Source: Moraxella haemolytica
GTDB taxonomy: Bacteria; Pseudomonadota; Gammaproteobacteria; Pseudomonadales; Moraxellaceae
Direction of reading: 5' to 3'
Assembly (NCBI RefSeq): GCF_030177935.1
Contig: NZ_CP089974.1
Coordinates: forward strand, 744,001-808,000
Length of the DNA stretch: 64,000 nucleotides
Shown: one piece after another, positions 1 through 10,685 of the stretch
Numbering within the stretch: position 1 is the stretch's first letter
Layout: each line of letters starts with the position of its first letter
Program-made: the position numbers and the translations under genes
The notes under the pieces: model-generated
Seen by the model: the letters and a program-made list of their open reading frames with translations, nothing else
Databases searched by the model: none
Told to the model about the DNA's origin: nothing

Positions 1-1827
1 GCATTATCAGCAGGGGTTCAGCGAATGGTACGCTCGGAAACTGGCACCTCTGGCGTGATGTTCACTCTAGACACCGAGAGTGGCTTTAATGAAGTGGTGT
101 TTATTACAGCAAGCTATGGTCTTGGTGAGATGGTTGTCCAAGGGGCAGTAAACCCTGATGAATTTTATCTGTCAAAAGCACTACTTGCTCAAAACCGCCC
201 TGCGGTGGTTCGTCGTAATTTAGGCTCAAAACACATCAAGATGGTCTATGGTGATGAGGGTAGTACCAAGCGTTCAACTAAGATTGTTGATGTAGAAAAG
301 GCAGACCGTCAGCAGTTTGCTTTATCAACCGATGAACTGACCGCTCTTGCCAAGCAAGCACTGATTATTGAGAAGCACTACGGCTGTCCTATGGATATTG
401 AATGGGCAAAAGATGGTGATACAGGCGAACTATTTATCGTGCAGGCACGCCCAGAGACAGTGAAATCTCGCCAAGACAAAACAAGCATGGAGCGTTATGT
501 CATCAACTCCAAAGGGGCAAAAGTGCTATGTGAGGGTCGCTCTATCGGTCAGCGTATCGGTTCTGGAAAAGTGCGTATCGTTAGCAATCTCAATGAGATG
601 AGTAAGGTTGAAGAAGGTGATGTGCTGGTGTCTGACATGACCGACCCAGATTGGGAGCCGGTGATGAAGCGAGCGTCTGCCATCATTACCAATCGTGGCG
701 GCCGTACTTGTCATGCCGCCATCATCGCTCGTGAGCTTGGCGTACCTGCCATTGTTGGCTGTGGTAATGCCACCGAGCTTTTAACAGATGGTCAGGCGGT
801 TACTGTATCATGTGCTGAGGGCGATACAGGATTTATTTATGATGGCAGGCTTGATTTTGAAGTGCAAAAAAACTCCATCGCTACCATGCCAGAGCTTGCC
901 TTTAAAGTCATGATGAATGTCGGCAATCCAGACCGTGCGTTTGATTTTGCTCAGATTCCTAATGAGGGCGTGGGCTTGGCACGACTAGAATTCATCATCA
1001 ACCGCATGATTGGTGTGCACCCAAAAGCCTTATTAAATGTAGATAGCTTGCCCCAAGAAACTCAATTGCAAGTCTTTGAGCGTATGGCAGGCTATAACTC
1101 GCCTGTGGAATTTTATATCAATAAGCTGATTGAGGGTATTTCTACTCTTGCGGTAGCGTTTTATGATAAGCCTGTGATTGTGCGTATGAGTGATTTTAAA
1201 TCCAATGAATACGCCAACTTGATCGGTGGTAAACTCTACGAGCCACACGAAGAAAATCCAATGCTTGGTTTCCGTGGGGCAAGTCGCTATATTTCGGATA
1301 ATTTCCGTGATTGCTTTGAGCTTGAATGCCGTGCGTTAAAATATGTGCGTGAGGAGATGGGCTTGACGAATGTCAAAATCATGATTCCGTTTGTACGCAC
1401 CACCACAGAAGCAGCCCAAGTGATTGAGCTACTAGAAAAAAATGGCTTAAAGCGTGGTCAAAACGGTCTTGAGATTATCATGATGTGCGAGTTGCCGACC
1501 AATGCTTTGCTTGCTGATGAGTTTTTGGAGTATTTTGATGGTTTTTCCATCGGTTCAAATGACTTAACTCAGCTTACACTTGGTCTTGATCGTGATAGTG
1601 GCATTGTTTCGCACTTGTTTGATGAGCGAGACCTTGCGGTCAAAAAACTGCTTAGTATGGCGATTGAAGCGTGTCGCAAACAAGGCAAATATGTCGGCAT
1701 TTGCGGTCAAGGACCTTCAGATCACCCAGATCTTGCTCGCTGGTTGATGGAGCAGGGCATTGATTCGGTATCCCTAAACCCTGATAGCGTACTTGATACT
1801 TGGTTATTTTTAGCAAAGGATAAGTAA
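1..1827 (+). CDS. ppsA: Phosphoenolpyruvate synthase, C-terminal part (5' end outside window)
   Basis: Makes phosphoenolpyruvate from pyruvate and ATP, giving AMP and phosphate, the entry step of gluconeogenesis. The reading frame is open from base 1 (A-L-S-A-G-V-Q-R), so the gene starts upstream; 608 residues are visible and roughly the first 185 of a usual 790 are missing. Seen: the end of the ATP-grasp nucleotide-binding domain ([10 protein letters not shown]), then the swivelling phosphohistidine domain with GGRTCHAA, whose His codon is at 712-714. The PEP-binding TIM barrel follows, with GFRGASRY and the late [11 protein letters not shown] and CGQGPS motifs. It ends in a strong terminator at 1845-1893. 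Family assignment is certain from the motif order; pyruvate phosphate dikinase is less likely because of the sequence around the active His. Confidence 0.95.
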
Positions 1828-1844
1828 TTAAAAATTTGTTGTTT

Positions 1845-1893
1845 TCCTGCAAGTCTTGTTTTTGTTGCAAAAATAGGGCTTGCAGGATTTTTT
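1845..1893 (+). terminator. Rho-independent terminator of ppsA
   Basis: Nine-base arms TCCTGCAAG (1845-1853) and CTTGCAGGA (1879-1887) enclose a second inner stem of T and A runs, followed by six Ts. It lies 18 bases after the ppsA stop. Confidence 0.85.
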
Positions 1894-1914
1894 ATACAAT
1901 ACAATAAATTTTTG

Positions 1915-1943
1915 TTGACTTTATAACTATGTTATGATACAAG
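1915..1943 (+). promoter_or_regulatory. Possible sigma70 promoter for the TPR-like gene
   Basis: TTGACT is followed after 17 bases by TACAAG, a weak -10. It lies about 25 bases before the ATG at 1966. There is no convincing Shine-Dalgarno in front of that ATG, so start and promoter are both tentative. Confidence 0.35.
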
Positions 1944-1965
1944 TATTGGAACCATTCTTAGCTTA

Positions 1966-2775
1966 ATGGAGTTTTTTACGGTTGAAGTTAAAAAATTGGA
2001 ATTGGTTGTTCATCACGATACTAGAAATGTCATTGCTTTCTCTTCTGTAAAAGATTTGTTTAGAAAACTGGGTCTGAATGAACAAAACTTTGATCCAAGT
2101 CTATCTAAAAATCTATATCTGTTTTATCCCACTGATATGGTTGTAAAATCTAATTTTTATCAGTGCAATCTTAGTTTGACAGAAAAAATTCCTTTGGAGC
2201 AAAGAATTCGTTATAGAACCAAAAATGTTTTGGATTCGGTATACGCTAAGATTATTGACTATATCAATAAAAACATTGATGGAGAAAAATTATCTGTCTA
2301 TGTTGTATGCAACTCTTATTTGGATGAATTTAGCCAGAGGTTTTTTGAGATGGCTCAAAAATTTGGCGGTTGGGAGGTTTCCTGTAAAATTCAGCATAAT
2401 TACTCTTTAAATTCAGATAAAAATCAAAATGATGAAAATTTATATAATAAATTAAGTACACTAAAATCCAATGGAAAAAGTGATTTTGATAAGGGTTTGT
2501 ATGATGATTTAATTAATATCTCACTTGAATATTTAAATGCTGGCGATGCTTTGACTGCAAAAAATATCTGTAATTTTGTTAAGAATTTTTATAGCGATTC
2601 TGATTTATGGAATACTCTTTCTATATCTGAACAAATGCTAAGAAATCCAATAATGTCTGAATATTATTTAGATTTAATATTAAATAACAATAATATTGAA
2701 AATACAAAAATGGTTCTAGATATTCTAAGGCTATGCTATATGCTAGAGTACACAGTAAAGAACTTCAAAGTATAG
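1966..2775 (+). CDS. Unknown protein, N-terminal half of a frameshifted tetratricopeptide-like gene
   Basis: I do not recognise this 269-residue protein. Residues 1 to about 150 look like a mixed alpha/beta domain (segments LYLFYPTDMVV and KLSVYVVCNSYLDEF). From about residue 165 it becomes helical and repeat-like (DLINISLEYLNAGDALTAKN), as in tetratricopeptide proteins. The last dozen residues (LRLCYMLEYTVK) look like out-of-frame translation. Adding one A near 2727-2728 would give LKAMLYARVHSKELQ and run straight into the downstream frame, so this and 2733-3608 are best read as one gene of about 548 residues broken by a -1 frameshift. Base composition is clearly more AT-rich than neighbouring housekeeping genes, which suggests acquisition. 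No catalytic motif is visible. It may belong with the peptide gene at 3659-3727 and the MFS gene at 3829. Confidence 0.55.
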   Translation: MEFFTVEVKKLELVVHHDTRNVIAFSSVKDLFRKLGLNEQNFDPSLSKNLYLFYPTDMVVKSNFYQCNLSLTEKIPLEQRIRYRTKNVLDSVYAKIIDYINKNIDGEKLSVYVVCNSYLDEFSQRFFEMAQKFGGWEVSCKIQHNYSLNSDKNQNDENLYNKLSTLKSNGKSDFDKGLYDDLINISLEYLNAGDALTAKNICNFVKNFYSDSDLWNTLSISEQMLRNPIMSEYYLDLILNNNNIENTKMVLDILRLCYMLEYTVKNFKV

Positions 2776-3608
2776 AAAAGTCAGAGTCTTTATTGAATCA
2801 AGCCTATAATGAAATTACAAGCTCTGATGAGTATCTAAATAATGTTCCAAATGCAATTTTTTCAGCTTTATTTAATCGTAATGGGTATGCTTTGATTTTA
2901 TTTCGAAATAATAAAATGGAAGAGGCAAAAAATTTAATGATAGATTGTATTGCTCAAATTGACAATATATCGATCATTGATGGAGAAGAAAAATTAGAAT
3001 TGTATCGTTCTGTTTTGGCGTACAATTTGGCTCAATGTTATGAAAGGCTTGGCGATTATAATAATGCCATCATCTCTTTAAATAGACTTTTGGATAAAGA
3101 TAAGTTAATGGATACTTATTATTTGGATTTGGCAAGAGTTTATGGTTATTTAAATGATATAGATTCTGCGATTTTTAGTTGCAGACAGACAACATTAATC
3201 AACCCTTACAGTCATCAAAACTGGGCAACCCTTGCTTATTGGCAATTACAAAAAACATTGTATTTAGATTCAGCATTTAACTATTATTATGCTTATAAAT
3301 TGTGTCTTGATCCTAAAAAGTCTTTAATGTATCTAAATGATGCTCTCTACTCAAAAATTTTATCCAAAGAACAAGATTGTTGTCCTGATTTAGAAGCGGT
3401 GTTAAAGAATTTTGTAACAAATAAAGAATTATTTGGCTTTGATGAAAGTGAGGTTGTAAAGTCTTTTAGTTTATTGGCGGAAACAGAGTTGTGTAAAGGT
3501 AATCAGAAGCAAGCCCTTGATTATTTATCATTAGCACTGGTTAAATTTCCCAATAATAACATTTTAAAACAAAACTATGAATTTTTAAGTTCTTTATATT
3601 TTGAATAA
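2733..3608 (+). CDS. Tetratricopeptide repeat protein, C-terminal half of the frameshifted gene
   Basis: 291 residues made of repeated helix pairs. TPR-like units include residues 86-115 (AYNLAQCYERLGDYNNAIISLNR), then DTYYLDLARVYGYLNDIDSAI and WATLAYWQLQKTLYLDSAFN, and a last unit LAETELCKGNQKQALDYLSLAL. TPRs bind peptides or proteins; no enzyme domain is seen. The ATG at 2733 has no ribosome binding site and lies inside the upstream frame. The product is therefore probably made only as part of the fused protein, unless the base missing near 2728 is a sequencing error. The gene ends at a hairpin shared with the converging peptide gene. A role in sensing, or as scaffold for, the neighbouring small peptide is a guess from position only. 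Confidence 0.6.
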   Translation: MLYARVHSKELQSIEKSESLLNQAYNEITSSDEYLNNVPNAIFSALFNRNGYALILFRNNKMEEAKNLMIDCIAQIDNISIIDGEEKLELYRSVLAYNLAQCYERLGDYNNAIISLNRLLDKDKLMDTYYLDLARVYGYLNDIDSAIFSCRQTTLINPYSHQNWATLAYWQLQKTLYLDSAFNYYYAYKLCLDPKKSLMYLNDALYSKILSKEQDCCPDLEAVLKNFVTNKELFGFDESEVVKSFSLLAETELCKGNQKQALDYLSLALVKFPNNNILKQNYEFLSSLYFE

Positions 3609-3639
3609 AACACGGCTAAATGTCGATTTAGCCGTGTTT
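3608..3639. terminator. Bidirectional hairpin between the TPR-like gene and the peptide gene
   Basis: Thirteen-base perfect arms AAACACGGCTAAA (3608-3620) and TTTAGCCGTGTTT (3627-3639) around a six-base loop. It starts at the last base of the TPR-like stop codon and lies 20 bases beyond the stop of the minus-strand peptide gene, so it can end both converging transcripts. Confidence 0.75.
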
Positions 3640-3658
3640 CTACATCTTTTGCTAAAGC

Positions 3659-3727
3659 TTACTTCATATGATAAAGTAGATCATGATTGACTTTTTTCAT
3701 TTCTGGCACTTGAATTGCTAGTTGCAT
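3659..3727 (-). CDS. Small peptide, 22 residues, unknown; possible modified or signalling peptide precursor
   Basis: A short open frame on the minus strand: ATG at 3727-3725, stop TAA at 3661-3659. The product begins MQLAIQVPEM and ends DLLYHMK, with KKVNH between. It has no signal peptide, membrane segment or cysteine. Support for a real gene: a good Shine-Dalgarno AGGAG six bases before the ATG; a near-perfect sigma70 promoter on the same strand (TTGACT, 17 bases, TATATT at 3791-3819); a terminator hairpin at 3608-3639. It lies between a TPR-like gene and a divergent MFS exporter, which is how genes for exported, modified or pheromone peptides are often arranged. I see no maturation enzyme such as a radical SAM, YcaO, ThiF-like or MNIO protein nearby. 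Its function is unknown; it could instead be a leader peptide or small regulatory protein. Confidence 0.6.
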   Translation of the reverse strand: MQLAIQVPEMKKVNHDLLYHMK

Positions 3728-3762
3728 AGCAGTCTCCTTTTCAAGTGAGTTGAAATTTTTCA

Positions 3763-3787
3763 AAATGTCAGATTTTTTCTGACATTT
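3763..3787. promoter_or_regulatory. Inverted repeat (operator or 5' hairpin) between the peptide and MFS genes
   Basis: Nine-base perfect arms AAATGTCAG (3763-3771) and CTGACATTT (3779-3787) around seven bases. On the minus strand it sits at the expected transcription start, four bases past the -10 of the peptide promoter. On the plus strand it lies upstream of the MFS gene. This is the usual place for a repressor of both genes, or for a 5' stabilising hairpin on the peptide mRNA. Confidence 0.6.
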
Positions 3788-3790
3788 CTT

Positions 3791-3819
3791 AATATACAAT
3801 ATATTTTTTAAAAAGTCAA
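3791..3819 (-). promoter_or_regulatory. Sigma70 promoter of the 22-residue peptide gene
   Basis: On the minus strand, -35 TTGACT (3819-3814), a 17-base spacer and -10 TATATT (3796-3791). Transcription would start near 3784, giving a leader of about 55 bases that carries the inverted repeat and the AGGAG site. Confidence 0.75.
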
Positions 3820-3828
3820 GAGTTTTTT

Positions 3829-5028
3829 ATGATTAAAGAAATTTTTTTTGCTAACCCAAATGTAAAGCGGTATGCTTTTTTTATGCTCTTTTTTCAGATG
3901 GGTATGGCAATATCACTGGCTTCTATGCCAATTTATTTTAAAAATGAAAACGCCATCTCCGCCTACGGAATGGCATATTCGGTTATGGCGGTAACAGGGG
4001 TGTTTTCTTTTGTTTATGGAATGTTTGTAGATAAAATTGGTTTTGCCAAAGCCTTGTTATTTGCTTTATTATTATACGCCCTTGCTTTATCTATGCGGGT
4101 ATTTACGCACCCAGTCATTGCGGTTATGACGGCAATAATCGCAGGTGTTGGTGCATCTACTGCCATTCTCGCCAATCGCTCTTGGGTTCTACAAATTTCT
4201 GAAGACAGTACTCAGAATACCACCAAATTAACCGCAATGCGTTCTATGATTGTCAATATTGCTATGTTGGTTGGGACGGGTCTTGTATCGTTGGCGGTGT
4301 ATGTATTTGGTTCTATTTATTTTTGGTTATTGTTAATGGCAGGCGGTTTTGTTTTTATGTCAAGTGTGTTTGCCTATCAGAATATTAAGTTTGATAAATT
4401 GAAAAAGGTAGCAATTAAGCCGAAAGAAAAAATATCCATAAAAAATATTTTAACCTTATCTACTATTTTGTTTATTTTATCTAATTTTGTTGTTGGTTTT
4501 TATGTTGGTTTATTTAAGCCTTACTTGATTTTGATGTTTGTGGAGTATGGTGTTTCCGAATCTAAGTCGGTATTTATTTATCTGATGACGACCGTTATGT
4601 CTATTTTGGTAAATATGCTATTATTGAAATATAATAACAAATTTAAAAATATGCCTTTTATTGGATTTTTTGTTGCAATGATGGGTTATATTTTGTCTTT
4701 TTTGCTAATGTCTTTTGGCTTGCATTATGGTTTGGCTCTTTGGGTGCTGGTGTTAGCAACTTTGGCGAGAAGTGCATTTACTGGATTATCTTCATCTTTT
4801 GAAGAAGTATTAGAATATGAATTTCTTGATAAAGCAACTTTGGCGATGGCTTTGGGTTTTACCCAAACTGCTTTTTTGGCAGGAGATGCTGTTGGTTCAT
4901 TGGTTACAAGTTTATGGATTGTACCAAAAAATATAGCAGATTATGCCCAGATTTGTTTATATTGTGCAGTATTGGCAGCTGTTCATATGGCGATTATTTT
5001 TTTGTTAAAGTTATTGATAAAAAGATAG
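3829..5028 (+). CDS. Major facilitator superfamily transporter
   Basis: A 399-residue inner membrane protein with about twelve hydrophobic segments and a short cytoplasmic loop rich in lysine between helices 6 and 7 (residues 190-210, KKVAIKPKEK), as in MFS proteins. The loop between helices 2 and 3 has a weak version of the family motif (YGMFVDKIGFAKA). The substrate cannot be read from the sequence. Start ATG at 3829 has AAGAG eight bases before it. The gene is AT-rich like the TPR-like gene, and is divergent from the 22-residue peptide gene with an inverted repeat between them. Export of that peptide or of a product made from it is a reasonable guess, but drug or metabolite efflux is equally possible. 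Confidence 0.8.
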   Translation: MIKEIFFANPNVKRYAFFMLFFQMGMAISLASMPIYFKNENAISAYGMAYSVMAVTGVFSFVYGMFVDKIGFAKALLFALLLYALALSMRVFTHPVIAVMTAIIAGVGASTAILANRSWVLQISEDSTQNTTKLTAMRSMIVNIAMLVGTGLVSLAVYVFGSIYFWLLLMAGGFVFMSSVFAYQNIKFDKLKKVAIKPKEKISIKNILTLSTILFILSNFVVGFYVGLFKPYLILMFVEYGVSESKSVFIYLMTTVMSILVNMLLLKYNNKFKNMPFIGFFVAMMGYILSFLLMSFGLHYGLALWVLVLATLARSAFTGLSSSFEEVLEYEFLDKATLAMALGFTQTAFLAGDAVGSLVTSLWIVPKNIADYAQICLYCAVLAAVHMAIIFLLKLLIKR

Positions 5029-5361
5029 TATTGGTGTAAGGTGTGTGATGCACCATCATGACGGAAGGTCATTTCAACTGTTTTTTTGGATTGTCATCAC
5101 CAAATCAATGTGTGATGAAACAGCATCAATGTTGTTTAAATATGTCATGATGGGTAGGGGTGCAATACATCATTCAAGTCATATCAGCAATCAATTTAAC
5201 TTGTTATGTTTCATTAATCCTGCACTCATGACATTAAATGAAAAACTAAGAAAACAAATCATCATCAGACGAAATTTGTTCATTGAGAAAATTCACATTC
5301 AATTATTGTAACTTGCCACATTTTCGTTTAAAATAAAAAATTTCATCATGACGACAGTAAA
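5029..5361. other. Intergenic stretch, no gene supported
   Basis: 333 bases between the MFS gene and the GYF/RDD gene. One open frame of 88 codons (5045-5311) was looked at and not accepted: its His/Met-rich start and the composition of the rest do not look like protein. No clear terminator hairpin was found. ATCATGACG occurs near both ends (5053 and 5345) but is too short to mean much. Confidence 0.6.
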
Positions 5362-6276
5362 ATGAAAATTTTTTTAGCTAGAAATAAAGTTCAAGCAGGT
5401 CCATACACTCTCGAAGAGGTCAATATCATGCTTTCATCAGGAGCGGTGGTTCTTGATGATTTGATGTGGCATGCGGGAATGAATGGTTGGCAAAAAATTG
5501 GCGATGTTACTGGTGGTCAACTAAGTTACCAGCCAAACACCACCAATTTGCAGTCAGCCAATCAGTCAGCCCAGCCATCAAGTCAGCGTGGTTTTGGCGA
5601 TAATGTTGAGCTCAAAACACACGCAGATAAGCGTGTGAGTGTTGATGAGTTGTATGGTCGTCAGCCAATCAACCCAGCCAAACCAAACCCATCAAATTCA
5701 TTGAATGGCAAAGTTTATCATCCCTCTGAAACTGTGTACGCATCTATCGGCAGTCGTTTTTTGGCATTGGCAATTAACATGACTTTATTTCTTGTTGCAT
5801 TCATGCCGTTTATTTCAGGATTGATGAAGTTGAATCCTGATCGTCAGCTGATGACCACCGGCAGCTTTGAATCACGCATGGCATATGCCCAAACCCTCGC
5901 TGAGCAGATTCCAACTCAAGTAGCAACCATGACGCTCCTTATGCTTGGCGGATATTTTTTGATTCAGTTGCTACTTATCATCATGCGTGGGCAATCGTTT
6001 GGCAAACTGGTTACCGGCATTCGTGCTGTTGATGAAAAGACTGGCAAACTACCGTCATTTGGTGCTTTGGTAGGTGTTCGCACCATTTTATTGTTGGTAA
6101 TTTATTGGCTTGCGATGGCACTGCCTTTTAATTTAGCGTTAGTACTGGTTGCGGTGAATTACTTTTTGGCAGCTAAGAGTGATAAAAAGCAAGGCTGGCA
6201 TGATAGATTGGCAAAAACTGTTATTGTCAAGGCACATTCTGATCAGCTTAATAAAACCAAAACGCACAACAAATAA
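5362..6276 (+). CDS. GYF-domain and RDD-family membrane protein
   Basis: 304 residues. Residues 1-55 form a GYF_2-type domain (GPYTLEEVNIMLSSG, then WHAGMNGWQKIGDV), usually a small peptide-binding module at the start of bacterial membrane proteins. Residues 60-125 are a Pro/Asn/Gln-rich linker. Residues 125-285 are an RDD domain: SRFLALAIN at the start of the first membrane helix, a second helix near 192-208, GQSFGKLVTGIRAVD after it, and a final hydrophobic pair. RDD proteins lie in the inner membrane; some act in sodium or other ion transport, most are uncharacterised. The gene is followed by ung, with no shared function evident. Confidence 0.85.
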   Translation: MKIFLARNKVQAGPYTLEEVNIMLSSGAVVLDDLMWHAGMNGWQKIGDVTGGQLSYQPNTTNLQSANQSAQPSSQRGFGDNVELKTHADKRVSVDELYGRQPINPAKPNPSNSLNGKVYHPSETVYASIGSRFLALAINMTLFLVAFMPFISGLMKLNPDRQLMTTGSFESRMAYAQTLAEQIPTQVATMTLLMLGGYFLIQLLLIIMRGQSFGKLVTGIRAVDEKTGKLPSFGALVGVRTILLLVIYWLAMALPFNLALVLVAVNYFLAAKSDKKQGWHDRLAKTVIVKAHSDQLNKTKTHNK

Positions 6277-6342
6277 TCCAAAATCATGGTTGGACGGCAT
6301 AAAAAATTAAAAACAGTCGTCCAATTTTCAATATGGTTAGTC

Positions 6343-7062
6343 ATGAATACTCAATACACCTCCGACCAACTCACCGCCTTACAAAAAGTCCAGTTGCCCG
6401 ATGATTGGAAAATGGCGTTATGCGATGTTCTGCTGTCTGCCACTATGGACAATCTGCGTGCATTTTTGCAACATGAATATGCACAGAACAAGACCATCTA
6501 TCCTTCTAAATCATTGATTTTTAATGCATTAAATACCACACCTTTATCAAGTGTAAAGGTCGTCATACTGGGGCAAGATCCTTATCATGGGGTGGGGCAG
6601 GCGATGGGATTGTCATTTAGTGTTCCCAAAATCATCCCCAAGCCACCAAGCCTGCAAAATATCCTAAAAGAATTGGCGATGGATTTAAATATTCCTGTAT
6701 CGGCTCATGGCGATCTGACGCACTGGGCAAATCAAGGCGTATTACTGCTTAATGCTACGCTCACCGTTGAAAATGGGCAGGCAGGTTCTCATCAAGGTAG
6801 GGGCTGGGAAGAGTTCACCGATGCAGTGATTGATGTCATCAATAAAAAAACCGACCATACGGTATTTATCCTTTGGGGCAGTTATGCCAAGAAAAAGGGG
6901 CGGTTTATTGACACATCTCGCCACTTGATTTTAACCGCAAATCACCCATCCCCCTTATCGGCAAATCGTGGTGGATTTTTTGGTTCTCGTCCGTTTTCGC
7001 AGACCAATGATTATCTTGTCAGACACGGCAAAGGGGCGATTGATTGGATGCTACCACAGTAA
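6343..7062 (+). CDS. ung: Uracil-DNA glycosylase
   Basis: Removes uracil from DNA, starting base excision repair after cytosine deamination or dUTP incorporation. The family-1 motifs are all present: GQDPYHG (catalytic Asp about residue 79), LLLNATLTVE, and HPSPLSA carrying the active-site His. The frame is open from 6286, but the ATG at 6343 gives the usual length of 239 residues and the usual N-terminus; the 19 extra residues do not look conserved. No strong Shine-Dalgarno is seen at either. The stop codon overlaps the ATG of tadA in a TAATG arrangement. Confidence 0.95.
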   Translation: MNTQYTSDQLTALQKVQLPDDWKMALCDVLLSATMDNLRAFLQHEYAQNKTIYPSKSLIFNALNTTPLSSVKVVILGQDPYHGVGQAMGLSFSVPKIIPKPPSLQNILKELAMDLNIPVSAHGDLTHWANQGVLLLNATLTVENGQAGSHQGRGWEEFTDAVIDVINKKTDHTVFILWGSYAKKKGRFIDTSRHLILTANHPSPLSANRGGFFGSRPFSQTNDYLVRHGKGAIDWMLPQ

Positions 7063-7649
7063 TGGCGTATCGTGGCATTGCATATGACCTTGTGTCTAAA
7101 ATGGCGTGTGTTTTGCCAAATTTTAGCTCCTTGAAATTTTGGTCGCCTACCGATGTTATCATGATGAATCAAGCCTTAACCCTTGCCAGACATGGGGCGG
7201 AGCGTGGCGAGATACCTGTGGGGGCTGTGGTGGTGCATGACGGGCAGATTTTGGGTGAAGGCTTTAATTGCCCGATTGGCACGCACGACCCAACGCACCA
7301 TGCCGAAATTGTTGCCTTGCGTCAGGCGTGCAGGCGGGTGCAAAATTATCGCCTGCCGATTGGCAGTACGCTGTATGTTACATTAGAGCCGTGTACCATG
7401 TGTTTTGGTTCGCTCATTCATGCCCGTGTGAGCCGTGTGGTGTTTGGGGCGTATGAACCAAAAGCAGGGGCGATGGCAAGCCAGTTAAATCTTGCCAAAG
7501 AGCCTTTTTATAATCACACCATCGCCATTCAAGGTGGACTGTTGGCAAATGAAAGTTCAATGATGTTAAGCCAATTTTTTAAACAAAGACGAGCTGATAA
7601 GAAAAAGGCGAGAATTGAAAGCCAAATCAATGAAGGATGTAAAGTCTAA
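7062..7649 (+). CDS. tadA: tRNA-specific adenosine deaminase
   Basis: Deaminates the wobble adenosine 34 of tRNA-Arg(ACG) to inosine. The zinc site of the cytidine deaminase fold is intact: HAE (about residues 80-82, with the proton-shuttling Glu) and PCTMC (about 110-114). Start: the ATG at 7062 overlaps the ung stop (TAATG), suggesting translational coupling and giving 195 residues. This is longer at the N-terminus than usual; the core begins at MMNQALTLA, so ATG 7101 or 7161 are possible alternatives. The C-terminus is basic, as in other TadA proteins. Its stop overlaps the start of the open frame that contains cmk. Confidence 0.93.
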   Translation: MAYRGIAYDLVSKMACVLPNFSSLKFWSPTDVIMMNQALTLARHGAERGEIPVGAVVVHDGQILGEGFNCPIGTHDPTHHAEIVALRQACRRVQNYRLPIGSTLYVTLEPCTMCFGSLIHARVSRVVFGAYEPKAGAMASQLNLAKEPFYNHTIAIQGGLLANESSMMLSQFFKQRRADKKKARIESQINEGCKV

Positions 7650-7702
7650 TGATGGATTTTCATCTTACCAGTTATTTTGTAAAAATATTAAAGAGAACTT
7701 CT

Positions 7703-8392
7703 ATGACAACCCCAAAAATCATCACCATTGACGGCCCTTCGGGGGCAGGTAAAGGCACGGTGACATATCGCCTTGCCGAGCATTTTGGTTTTGAGTTGTT
7801 AGATAGTGGGGCGTTGTATCGCATCATTGGTCTGATGGCATTTAAAAACGGTTTGCTTGACGATACAGAGATTGACGAGCAAAAAGTTGCCAAATTAACC
7901 CAGTCTTTAAACCTATCTTTTCGCCCCAATACCACCACAAAAACAGTGGAAATCCTAGTGGATAATACGCCCTTAACGGACGACATTCGCAATGAAATCG
8001 TGGGCGGATATGCATCTAGGGTAGCTGTATTGCCAAGCGTGCGAACGGCTTTATTTGACTTACAAAAAAACATGGCAAAAGACAAGGCGGGGCTTGTGGC
8101 AGATGGGCGAGACATGGGGACGGTGATTTTCCCCGATGCCCCTGTTAAGGTATTTTTGACCGCAAGTGCTAAGGCTCGTGCTGACAGACGGGTGCTACAA
8201 TTACAAACAGCAGGCAAAGTGTTGGATTATCATGCGATTTTGGCAGACATCATCGCCCGAGATGAGCGAGATGAGAATCGTGCCGTTGCCCCAAGTCGCC
8301 CTGCCATAGATGCCCTTGTGATTGATAGCTCAGACAAATCGGCAGATGTGGTGTTTGATGAGATTTTGGCGTTTGCACAGGGTAAATTATGA
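7703..8392 (+). CDS. cmk: Cytidylate kinase
   Basis: Phosphorylates CMP and dCMP to the diphosphates with ATP. 229 residues, the usual length. The P-loop GPSGAGKGT is near residues 10-18, followed by LLDSGALYRI (CMP-binding) and DGRDMGTVIFPDA; the LID contains RDERDENRAVAPSRPA. The frame is open from 7649, but the ATG at 7703 has AAGAGA just before it and starts directly at the conserved MTTPKIITIDG; the extra 18 residues are not conserved in kind. In many gammaproteobacteria cmk lies just upstream of rpsA; here a broken GNAT gene lies between the two. Confidence 0.95.
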   Translation: MTTPKIITIDGPSGAGKGTVTYRLAEHFGFELLDSGALYRIIGLMAFKNGLLDDTEIDEQKVAKLTQSLNLSFRPNTTTKTVEILVDNTPLTDDIRNEIVGGYASRVAVLPSVRTALFDLQKNMAKDKAGLVADGRDMGTVIFPDAPVKVFLTASAKARADRRVLQLQTAGKVLDYHAILADIIARDERDENRAVAPSRPAIDALVIDSSDKSADVVFDEILAFAQGKL

Positions 8393-8858
8393 TAATGCTT
8401 ACTCCACTTAGCACCACACACCAAGATGAACTGTCTTATGAGTTAAACGATGAACAAATGCAGTTCACCACCCTGCCAAAAGACTGGTTTGATGATGAGC
8501 TTGTGGATGCTTATAGGGTGGTGATTTTGGACGATGGCTTGCATCGGGCAGTGGGGTTTTTGTGCTAGATTTTGGATAGGACAAATACCGCTACACCGAT
8601 AATTCTAATGCCGTCCTGCTTCGCTCGATGTCAATAAACCCTGCTTTTCAAGGTATGGGATATGCCAAGAACGCTATGAATTTCAAATGTTTATAAGAAT
8701 TTTGTAAAACGCATATCCCCCTTTGTAATGAGATTGTACTTGGGGTAAATCACGCCAATGCGTCCGCCCAAAGACTTTATGAAAAGGTGGGTTTTATAAG
8801 GCAAGTGCGAACCGTTATGGGGCAAAAGGGCAGCAGTGGGTGTATTATCTTAAAATAA
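8389..8858 (+). pseudogene. GNAT family N-acetyltransferase, multiply frameshifted remnant
   Basis: The ATG at 8389 overlaps the cmk stop (ATGA) and reads for 59 codons (DDELVDAYRVVILDDGLHR) to TAG at 8566-8568. The family then continues in other frames. VLLRSMSINPAFQGMGYAKNAM, with the acetyl-CoA-binding Q-G-x-G-x-A signature, is near 8609-8675. GVNHANASAQRLYEKVGF, the last GNAT strand and helix, is near 8750-8800. The final piece ends at TAA 8856-8858. At least two frameshifts and an in-frame stop are needed to join the pieces, so no full-length enzyme is made. The original substrate cannot be told. Confidence 0.8.
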
Positions 8859-8883
8859 ATCGCTATCTATTTTAATAAATATC

Positions 8884-8892
8884 TGATATAAT
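8884..8892 (+). promoter_or_regulatory. Extended -10 promoter of rpsA
   Basis: TGATATAAT is a TG-n extended -10 with a perfect TATAAT (8887-8892). No good -35 is seen upstream, as expected for extended -10 promoters. The leader would be about 110 bases. Confidence 0.6.
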
Positions 8893-8934
8893 TATTGGGT
8901 TTATCATATTTTTGTGTTGCTATTTGAGTCAAAA

Positions 8935-8980
8935 CCAGCACCTCTCAATAGCACACATCACTTGAACCGTACTGTGCTGG
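8935..8980 (+). promoter_or_regulatory. Stem-loop in the rpsA leader
   Basis: Arms CCAGCAC (8935-8941) and GTGCTGG (8974-8980) enclose 32 bases, ending 31 bases before the rpsA ATG. In E. coli, S1 represses its own translation through a structured leader; a similar role here is inferred. Confidence 0.45.
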
Positions 8981-9011
8981 ACAGGCTACGGCTAATTTTA
9001 AGGTATTACTA

Positions 9012-10685
9012 ATGAGTTTATCATTTGCTGAACTGTTTGAACAAAGCAACGCCAACGAAATCAAAGTTGAGATCGGTGCTGTAATTTCTGGTACAGTCGT
9101 TGCCATTGACAACGAGCGTATCACTGTTGACACTGGTCTGAAATCAGAAGGCTTTATTGTGCGTTCAGAATTCTTGAACGAAGCTGGCGAACTAGAAGTT
9201 GCCATTGGCGATAAAGTTGATGTTGTTGTTGAAAAAGTTGACAACGGTATGGGCGAAACTGTTCTTTCTCGTGAAAAAGCGAAGCGTGAAGAAAGTTGGC
9301 GTGCTCTTGAGCAGCTTCATGAAAATGACGAAATCGTTACTGGTCTTATCTCTTCTAAAGTTAAAGGTGGCTTTACTGTTGAGATTGGTTCTGTGCGTGC
9401 GTTCCTACCAGGTTCATTGGTAGATGTTCGTCCTGTTCGTGAAACCACTCATCTAGAAGGCAAAGAGCTAGAGTTTAAAGTCATCAAGATTGACAAGCAA
9501 CGCAACAACATTGTTGTATCTCGTCGTGCTGTTATGGAAGCTGAAAACTCAGCTGAGCGTGATGAGCTACTAGCTAAGCTAGAAGAAGGTATGGAAGTTC
9601 AAGGTATCGTTAAGAACCTAACTGACTACGGTGCATTCGTTGATCTAGGTGGCATTGATGGTCTACTGCACATCACTGATATGGCATGGAAACGCATCAA
9701 GCATCCATCAGAAGCGGTAGAAGTTGGTCAAGACCTTAAAGTAAAAGTATTGAAGTTTGACCGTGAGCGTAACCGTGTATCTCTAAGTCTAAAACAACTT
9801 GGCTCTGATCCTTGGGGAGAAGTTGAGCAAACTTACCCAGTAGGTACCATCACTAAAGCTTGTGTAACTAACCTAACTGACTACGGTTGCTTTGCAGAAA
9901 TCGCAGAAGGTATTGAAGGTTTGGTGCATGTGTCTGAAATGGATCATACTAATAAAAACATCCACCCATCAAAAGTTGTTCAAGTGGGCGATGAAGTTGA
10001 TGTTATGGTTCTTGAAATTGATGGTGAGCGTCGTCGCATCAGCTTGGGCATCAAGCAAACCATGCCAAACCCATGGGAAGAGTTTGACAAAAACCATGCC
10101 AAAGGTGACAAAATCTCTGGTACCATCAAGTCAATCACTGACTTTGGCTTGTTCATCGGTCTAGAAGGCGGTATTGATGGTCTGGTTCATCTATCAGACA
10201 TCTCTTGGACTGAGTCTGGCGAAGAAGCTATCCGCAACTATACCAAAGGCGATACTGTAGAAGCTGTTGTTCTACAAGTGGATGCAGAAGCTAACCGTAT
10301 CAGTCTAGGCATCAAACAGCTTAACTCTGACCCATTCAATGAGTATCTATTGGCTAACGACCGTGGTGCTATCGTAAAAGGTTCGGTTAAAGAAGTAGAT
10401 GCTAAAGGTGCTGTTATTACTCTAGCTGATGAAGTAGAAGGCTACCTAGCTGCTGCTGACATCGCTCGTGAGCGTACCGAAGATGCTTCTAAAGTACTAA
10501 GCGTTGGTGATGAAGTAGAAGCAAAAATCGTTCGTATTGATCGTAAATCTCGTGGTATCACTCTATCTGTGAAAGCCAAAGATGAAGCTGATGAGCGTCA
10601 AGCCATCAGAGAGTTATCAAACACTGCAGCGGAGAATCAGCCTAAAACCCTAGGCGATATCTTTGCTAATCAGCTAAAAGGCTAA
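9012..10685 (+). CDS. rpsA: 30S ribosomal protein S1
   Basis: Binds single-stranded mRNA upstream of the start codon and brings it to the 30S subunit. 557 residues, the full gammaproteobacterial length, with six S1 OB-fold repeats at roughly 21-87, 105-171, 192-260, 277-347, 364-434 and 451-520. The repeated core is visible as [43 protein letters not shown] and [22 protein letters not shown]. The first two repeats are the divergent ribosome-binding ones. Codon use is strongly biased (GGT, CGT, GTT, CTA), as in highly expressed genes. AAGG lies nine bases before the ATG. A strong terminator follows at 10697. Confidence 0.98.

Follow-up and report, generated by a model that had tools for sequence, protein, structure and literature searches.

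What does a 69-base open reading frame (ORF) encode that lies between a transporter gene and a gene for a repeat protein, and do the three belong together? The question is raised by the minus strand at 3659-3727 of a 64,000-nucleotide stretch of the Moraxella haemolytica genome (NZ_CP089974.1, positions 744,001 to 808,000; hereafter the window). A first-pass annotation, made from the sequence alone, had proposed a 22-residue peptide gene here, divergent from an exporter of the major facilitator superfamily (MFS) and convergent with a tetratricopeptide repeat (TPR)-like gene, the three forming a small peptide system with export, sensing and possibly a new maturation protein. On sequence comparison the ORF is a real gene, and its product is a member of a tiny-peptide family that apparently has not been described so far. 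The reading we prefer, at slightly better than even chances, is that of a mobile module for the production and export of a small ribosomal peptide, in which the TPR protein would occupy the maturation slot and the MFS protein would both export the product and protect the producer.

The ORF was ranked with a position profile built from 19 peptides that carry Tyr19, none of them from Moraxella or Acinetobacter (Listeria, with Tyr at 18, was dropped from the 20 candidates). Among 2,433 window frames (start to stop, 19-60 amino acids, nested starts included) it came first with a score of 7.7, while the runner-up scored 0.5 and the mean was -23.7 (standard deviation 6.8). Given this first rank by a profile that excludes both genera, a chance ORF was rejected, as had been argued at first pass. 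Lys or Gln at residue 2 together with Tyr19 occurs in three of the 1,822 window frames of 19-40 amino acids, and just one has Pro8 as well. The window peptide combines Met1, Gln2 and Tyr19 with the C-terminal end YHMK. A longer frame with a TTG start (3659-3799) covers the same ORF; the ATG at 3727 is favored because of its good ribosome-binding site and the family alignment, and the 22-mer is presumably translated in the cell.

Relatives of 20-29 residues adjoin related TPR genes in Pseudomonadota, Actinomycetota, Bacillota, Fusobacteriota and one Bdellovibrionales metagenome-assembled genome. TPR relatives were found on plasmids in 17 of 72,556 records, and plasmid loci with a peptide come from Klebsiella, Pantoea (2 species), Listeria, Streptobacillus, Priestia, Bacillus, Exiguobacterium and Acinetobacter. 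A nine-protein TPR profile recovered 22 loci from a genome collection; an intact peptide lies upstream of the TPR gene in 17 of them, the peptide is broken in one (L038), a more distant candidate is present in one (L049), and L044 ends at a contig end. Peptides were chosen by eye from short ORFs with a ribosome site, and none of those listed is present among the annotated features of the plasmid records examined, whose gene table is stated to be incomplete. An Acinetobacter lwoffii plasmid repeats the unusual layout of the window, with a TPR gene, a facing peptide gene and a divergent MFS gene. Its peptide, MKLLVSSPAIVKVSYKTAYALKVEA, is preceded by the same AAAAGGAGACT as in the window and ranks first of the 183 frames in its locus (score 14.5, next -7.5; profile without Acinetobacter and Moraxella). 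The short ORF of most other relatives lies directly upstream of the TPR gene, as in Klebsiella (MKMIKRKPAAKRVDFSVMYNR). In Exiguobacterium a single peptide, MKTVVIKKNSVRAKVVLGYN, is encoded three times in tandem, with a ribosome site for each copy. Another A. lwoffii plasmid locus (L019, 6004-8365) is a heavily degraded second module; the same strain's other plasmid holds the intact L027.

Tyr stands exactly at residue 19 in 26 of the 30 collected peptides (29 distinct), and its position shifts in Listeria (18), Streptobacillus (20), L062 (18) and L065 (22). Lengths range from 20 to 29, residue 2 is Lys (25), Gln (4) or Glu (1), and the net charge of the N-terminal part is 0 for the window copy and +1 to +8 for the remaining 29. 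Met1 and Tyr19 are the sole invariant residues in an 18-row alignment. FSVMY-type cores recur across phyla, and the residues flanking Tyr show no conservation in Moraxella and Acinetobacter. Alike N-terminal parts carry differing tails within the Enterobacterales and within Streptomyces, a pattern that would fit the constant leader and variable core of a precursor of the ribosomally synthesized and post-translationally modified peptide type. Left out of the 30-peptide counts are L019, L038 (peptide and TPR gene both broken), L044, L047, L048, L049, L059-L061 and L064 (no convincing peptide) and L063 (sole candidate without Tyr); L027, L066 and L067 nearly duplicate loci that the counts already include, and the tail count for Streptobacillus was taken from its second Tyr, so that this one entry is off. 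The L049 candidate, from Levilactobacillus (MKNEKKALKAVLVRKAFRFEYNA, 2405-2476), ends in FRFEYNA and lies some 1.1 kb ahead of its TPR gene. The more distant TPR loci L062 (Streptomyces) and L065 (Vibrio coralliilyticus) have another peptide type (KQDTVRTTTSYVAG and KKVRTTTPYQAA, respectively), perhaps a second subfamily.

Outside Moraxella the peptide codons change faster at silent sites: silent change per site exceeded replacement change in 11 of 11 peptide pairs, which were chosen by us, are not independent and in some cases have tails of unequal length. Examples are the Klebsiella/Pantoea pair (silent, 11 of 13.3 sites vs. replacement, 4 of 46.7), Streptomyces L034/L036 (9 of 16.8 vs. 1 of 49.2) and an Arthrobacter pair (6 of 16.7 vs. 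0 of 58.3); the two rates are nearly equal in L043/L037 (pS 0.27 vs. pN 0.233), and the Streptococcus pair has 3 changes in all. The two Moraxella copies are too close for such a comparison, both of their peptide differences altering the residue; the faster silent change that the first-pass check for purifying selection would look for is visible in the other genera and not in this pair.

The usual unit is peptide-TPR-MFS, and an S9-type peptidase is often added. The TPR and MFS genes are co-inherited across 14 loci: their pairwise distances correlate at 0.94, which 0 of 5,000 permutations reached (three loci with another MFS type stood outside the test). The window MFS protein, confirmed as a member of MFS_1, would serve as the exporter and self-protection of the module; of 17 MFS proteins from other module loci it matches 14, with E-values between 6e-55 and 1e-7. 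Of 48 loci, 37 gave a match to the MFS protein and 18 to an S9-type peptidase; included in these counts are the loci from which the queries came, near-copies and four Moraxella loci that lack TPR. In Moraxella, Acinetobacter, Listeria and Providencia the module is minimal, with peptide, TPR and MFS genes alone. Bacillus, Priestia and Exiguobacterium loci carry an O-methyltransferase and a 77-84-residue protein, and Exiguobacterium also a ThiF protein. On Exiguobacterium alkaliphilum plasmid pE73 (L058, 1316-3766), genes for a ThiF-family protein, an 84-amino-acid protein and an O-methyltransferase are divergent from three tandem genes for one Asn-ending peptide, a possible bridge to microcin C-like chemistry. 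A 10.7-kb Streptobacillus plasmid (L021) has TPR and peptide genes alongside ABC-2 transporter genes, and the part examined gave no MFS match; it possibly uses another exporter type. In Crocinitomix (L047, 3944-6122) a methyltransferase gene follows the TPR relative; this locus gave no MFS match, and no peptide could be found there.

Among 22 genomes of the genus Moraxella, the MFS gene is present in 6, the TPR gene in 2 and the peptide in the same 2; the 4 MFS genomes without TPR hold no peptide, in agreement with the co-occurrence proposed at first pass, whose reading thereby survives the refutation test set for it. When 57 genomes were searched for the peptide, two matched: the window genome and the relative G005, whose copy is 91% identical (20 of 22 residues alike). 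The tract at 1801-5550 is 98-100% identical between the two in 150-base bins, inside divergent flanks (left, 78-88%; right, 63-93%), so the whole module was exchanged recently between species. The MFS tract of the window is 96-100% identical to G020 in 13 of 14 bins (one bin, 85%) and 95-100% identical to G016 (12 bins). Both of these genomes have a scrap of the TPR 5' end between ppsA and the MFS gene (66 bases, 73% identical, E 4.6e-6), and G020 has an additional weak TPR 3' scrap (45 bases, E 0.008); here the MFS gene was kept after loss of TPR. A peptide-profile search of the genus made the two known copies alone stand out, with E-values inflated by the presence of both in the profile. The family-level search matched 3 of 249 genomes, counting the window genome and G005. 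The window genome was the one match in whole-genome searches of 390 order-level genomes (one diverged query) and 369 class-level genomes (at most 4 candidates scored per genome, which may miss relatives). An exact-pattern scan of genome contigs with the single Moraxella TPR protein gave no match, nor did E. coli genomes queried with Klebsiella DNA, and no module relatives were found in viral contigs or phage records.

The convergent TPR-like neighbor is likewise confirmed, TPR motifs being confined to the ORF at 2733-3608 among the window module ORFs scanned; the first-pass annotation had not seen that the gene is frameshifted. In G005 it is intact as one 547-amino-acid frame, with the FNRNGY motif at 303-308. 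The window frameshift is either real decay or a base-call error, and with the gene broken, peptide production in the window strain is doubtful. Invariant or nearly invariant residues of the family are S-L-T and an Arg in the N-terminal part and, in the repeats, Tyr, Arg, FNRNGY, His, Asn and Asp. Library searches gave mainly generic TPR matches, and no Pfam or NCBIfam model names the family. The N-terminal ~160 residues have no reliable PDB or Pfam family; a STAS match (E 0.13 in 1 of 14 members) was not trusted. Pfam scans for a helix-turn-helix (HTH) or output domain found none in the TPR proteins of the window, L020, L022 and L026 or in 14 N-terminal parts. Three PADLOC models each matched 1 or 2 of 15 TPR proteins, none of them the first, and the strongest match was PDC-M71B to one member (9.3e-7). 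We found no description of the module or of the TPR family in the full text of open-license papers.

The module that we propose would work as follows. The 20-29-residue precursor would consist of an N-terminal part of ~18 residues, Tyr at residue 19 and, behind it, a short tail that varies. The TPR protein would bind this precursor, probably gauging the fixed distance to Tyr19, with the leader lying along the TPR superhelix and Tyr19 presented at its end. Since the minimal versions have peptide, TPR and MFS alone, the TPR protein should itself mature the peptide, chaperone it, shield it inside the cell or bring in a host enzyme or peptidase. The MFS protein would export the product and protect the producer, the S9-type (prolyl-oligopeptidase-like) peptidase of many versions could act in processing or immunity, and three Bacillus-group versions also carry an O-methyltransferase. 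An antibacterial product, akin to a bacteriocin or microcin, is the most likely. A more specific proposal, possible but doubtful, is that the locus represents a new class of ribosomal peptides in several phyla, in which the superhelix of a TPR protein without an enzyme domain recognized by the libraries is the sole dedicated maturation factor and ruler for an 18-residue leader, presenting Tyr19 and the tail for modification or a cut, and the MFS pump both exports and immunizes. Of the first-pass proposal, the peptide gene, its working together with the TPR and MFS genes and the TPR protein as candidate new maturation partner are supported; sensing by the TPR protein is less so, as Pfam finds no HTH domain in it.

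Several observations weigh against this module. The minimal versions contain no recognized enzyme, so any modification is conjectural. Four of the six Moraxella genomes with the MFS gene lack both TPR and peptide; a pump retained after loss of its producer genes is what would be expected of a self-protection gene and could fit immunity, but an unrelated efflux role could fit too. The module MFS proteins form one subfamily, from which three Bacillus-group loci depart with an MFS type of their own, unmatched by the window MFS, and there is no module MFS match in 11 of 48 loci (L021, L042, L044, L047, L059-L065), although the L062 record holds an MFS gene of its own. No peptide was found at two of the 22 genome-scan loci (L047, L048), and no RNPP-type regulator was seen by eye upstream of the Bacillota loci L020, L026, L031, L048 and L049. 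Finally, the Moraxella peptide pair differs by 2 replacement and 0 silent changes, and the TPR and MFS genes of the same pair together by 3 silent vs. 11 replacement changes.

The closest known parallel is microcin C. As outlined in PMC9239234, minimal mcc clusters have a precursor, one partner, export and optional immunity enzymes, and one MccA given there has 21 amino acids, begins with MKI and is rich in Lys and Arg. The locus has in common with them a minimal set of three genes, for a very short precursor, a partner protein and an exporter (an MFS protein in E. coli); enzymes for self-immunity are optional. Where microcin C has the MccA peptide, the ThiF-like enzyme (nucleotidyltransferase) MccB and the MFS exporter MccC, here the TPR protein takes the MccB position, and the MFS_1 protein of the window would export the peptide. 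Unlike microcin C, however, no ThiF was found among the window module ORFs scanned, nor when the ORFs of 1-10000 were inspected by eye, and Lys rather than Asn closes the Moraxella peptide; Asn-terminal peptides occur in some relatives only, and a ThiF protein and an Asn-ending peptide occur together in Exiguobacterium alone among the loci with annotation examined. With these defining features absent, membership was rejected, and the module at most works like microcin C. TPR proteins also occur in the clusters of FxSxx-COOH and other NCBIfam peptide systems. FxSxx_TPR matches 3 of 15 TPR proteins and mod_pep_cyc 7 of 15 (best E 1.4e-5 and 1.6e-5, respectively), as generic repeat matches only; one member viewed in full has no such match near the curated cut-off, and the peptides here lack an FxSxx terminus. 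The biphenomycin system, in which a TPR-containing putative arginase accompanies MNIO enzymes (PMC12257519), is different from the peptide-TPR-MFS module.

A short peptide gene adjoining a TPR protein also recalls the RRNPP pairs (Rap/Phr, TprA/PhrA), and the locus could instead serve cell-to-cell signaling, with the MFS exporting a pheromone precursor that is trimmed to its tail and the TPR protein acting as a Rap/Phr- or RRNPP-like receptor. RRNPP receptors hold the peptide backbone with conserved Asn residues, and by analogy the conserved Asn of the TPR repeats here could do the same; the similar N-terminal part with a variable tail agrees as well. We nevertheless consider signaling unlikely, because the TPR proteins scanned have no HTH or other known output domain, the N-terminal part is mostly basic (net charge 0 in the window copy) instead of a hydrophobic secretion signal, the module has a dedicated MFS and often a peptidase, and Streptococcus, Priestia and Exiguobacterium have a separate HTH regulator beside or near it (RNPP_C in two: Priestia, E 2e-20; Exiguobacterium, E 1.7e-43, ~2 kb from the module). 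In the Streptococcus locus (L040, 1977-3148), genes for the HTH regulator and a 44-amino-acid prepeptide ending in GIDPGPANGKVF directly precede the module, and this operon is likely under density control. The separate regulators are counted in favor of the preferred module; in pneumococcus a comparable regulator-pheromone system, TprA/PhrA, controls a lantibiotic cluster (PMC5436883).

Three further explanations receive still less weight. PqqA is a precursor of ~22 residues with a key Tyr near its C-terminus, and the size and Tyr of the window peptide resemble it, so that a Tyr-derived redox cofactor or metal-binding small molecule, made as PQQ is from PqqA, might be considered. The invariance of Met1 and Tyr19, the recurrence of FSVMY-type cores and the frequent S9 peptidases are in its favor, but no PQQ, redox enzyme or radical-SAM gene was recognized among the module genes scanned, the surroundings of Tyr vary, and a patchy, partly plasmid-borne distribution with recent loss and transfer is unlike that of a housekeeping cofactor; we regard this origin as quite improbable. 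We give similarly little credence to a drug- or peptide-resistance cassette, in which MFS efflux with an optional hydrolase does the work and the peptide and TPR protein merely sense the drug. Retention of the MFS gene without TPR or peptide, its spread between species and the accompanying S9 hydrolases suit such a cassette, whereas the faster silent change outside Moraxella and the tandem amplification point to a product, and a conserved translated peptide would be superfluous for a drug sensor. Most relatives have the short ORF just upstream of TPR-MFS in the same direction, where a fixed Tyr could mark a ribosome-stalling site, and the ORF might thus be a cis-acting leader (attenuator) controlling the TPR-MFS efflux operon. 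This has only the slightest probability and was rejected: the Moraxella and Acinetobacter ORFs run against the TPR-MFS direction, facing TPR and divergent from MFS, and cannot act as leaders, and Exiguobacterium has tandem copies with their own ribosome sites.

The preferred module for making and exporting a peptide looks like an overlooked route to a small, perhaps antibacterial product. Genes of 20-29 codons are easily missed by annotation, and if the product is antibacterial or a signal, the class would be expected to evade cluster finders that rely on known enzymes. With the TPR motif and the Tyr19 rule as guides, the system can readily be searched for and tested, and it raises the question of how a repeat protein without a recognized enzyme domain serves a precursor with Tyr at a fixed distance.

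The signals around the peptide gene (Table 1) are of unequal value. The frame and its good AGGAG site are both present as described at first pass, and so is the AT-rich setting: 500-base bins between 1751 and 5500 have 26-35% GC, vs. mostly 40-50% elsewhere in the first 12 kb. The near-consensus promoter exists too, but such sites abound in AT-rich sequence like this (33 found by the scan in 5.5 kb vs. 22.1 ± 5.4 in shuffles), so the case for the gene must rest on homology, and promoter and terminator by themselves were rejected as proof. The claimed terminator corresponds to a strong hairpin that possibly serves both the peptide and TPR genes, but its T run is poor and it is absent from the terminator-scan list. 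The inverted repeat between the promoter-like and ribosome sites may be an operator or a 5' hairpin; in Acinetobacter (L018) the ribosome site is likewise preceded by an inverted repeat, though not the same one (z -2.8).

Table 1. Coordinates of the peptide gene, its neighbors and associated signals in the window.
Feature	Position	Strand	Remarks
22-amino-acid precursor-type peptide gene	3659..3727	-	Product MQLAIQVPEMKKVNHDLLYHMK; family pattern MKL....P....KV.....Y, Tyr at residue 19
Ribosome-binding site AGGAG	3734..3738	-	6 nt ahead of ATG; AAAAGGAGACT common to Acinetobacter homologue
Promoter-like TTGACT-17-TATATT of peptide gene	3791..3819	-	10/12 matches; weak alone
Inverted repeat between promoter-like and ribosome sites	3762..3788		z -3.5
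Strong hairpin between convergent peptide and TPR genes	3607..3640		-20.3 kcal/mol, z -5.7
5' part of frameshifted TPR-partner gene	1966..2775	+	N-terminal domain, no known family; no Pfam match
3' part of frameshifted TPR-partner gene	2733..3608	+	TPR repeats, FNRNGY motif
MFS transporter, divergent from peptide gene	3829..5028	+	MFS_1, E 2.4e-13
Transferred tract	1801..5550		98-100% identical to G005 in 150-base bins

Further along the window, at 8389-8860, there is by eye an apparently decayed acetyltransferase-type gene, in which a short ORF (8389-8568) is followed by out-of-frame remnants such as NPAFQGMGYAKNAM.

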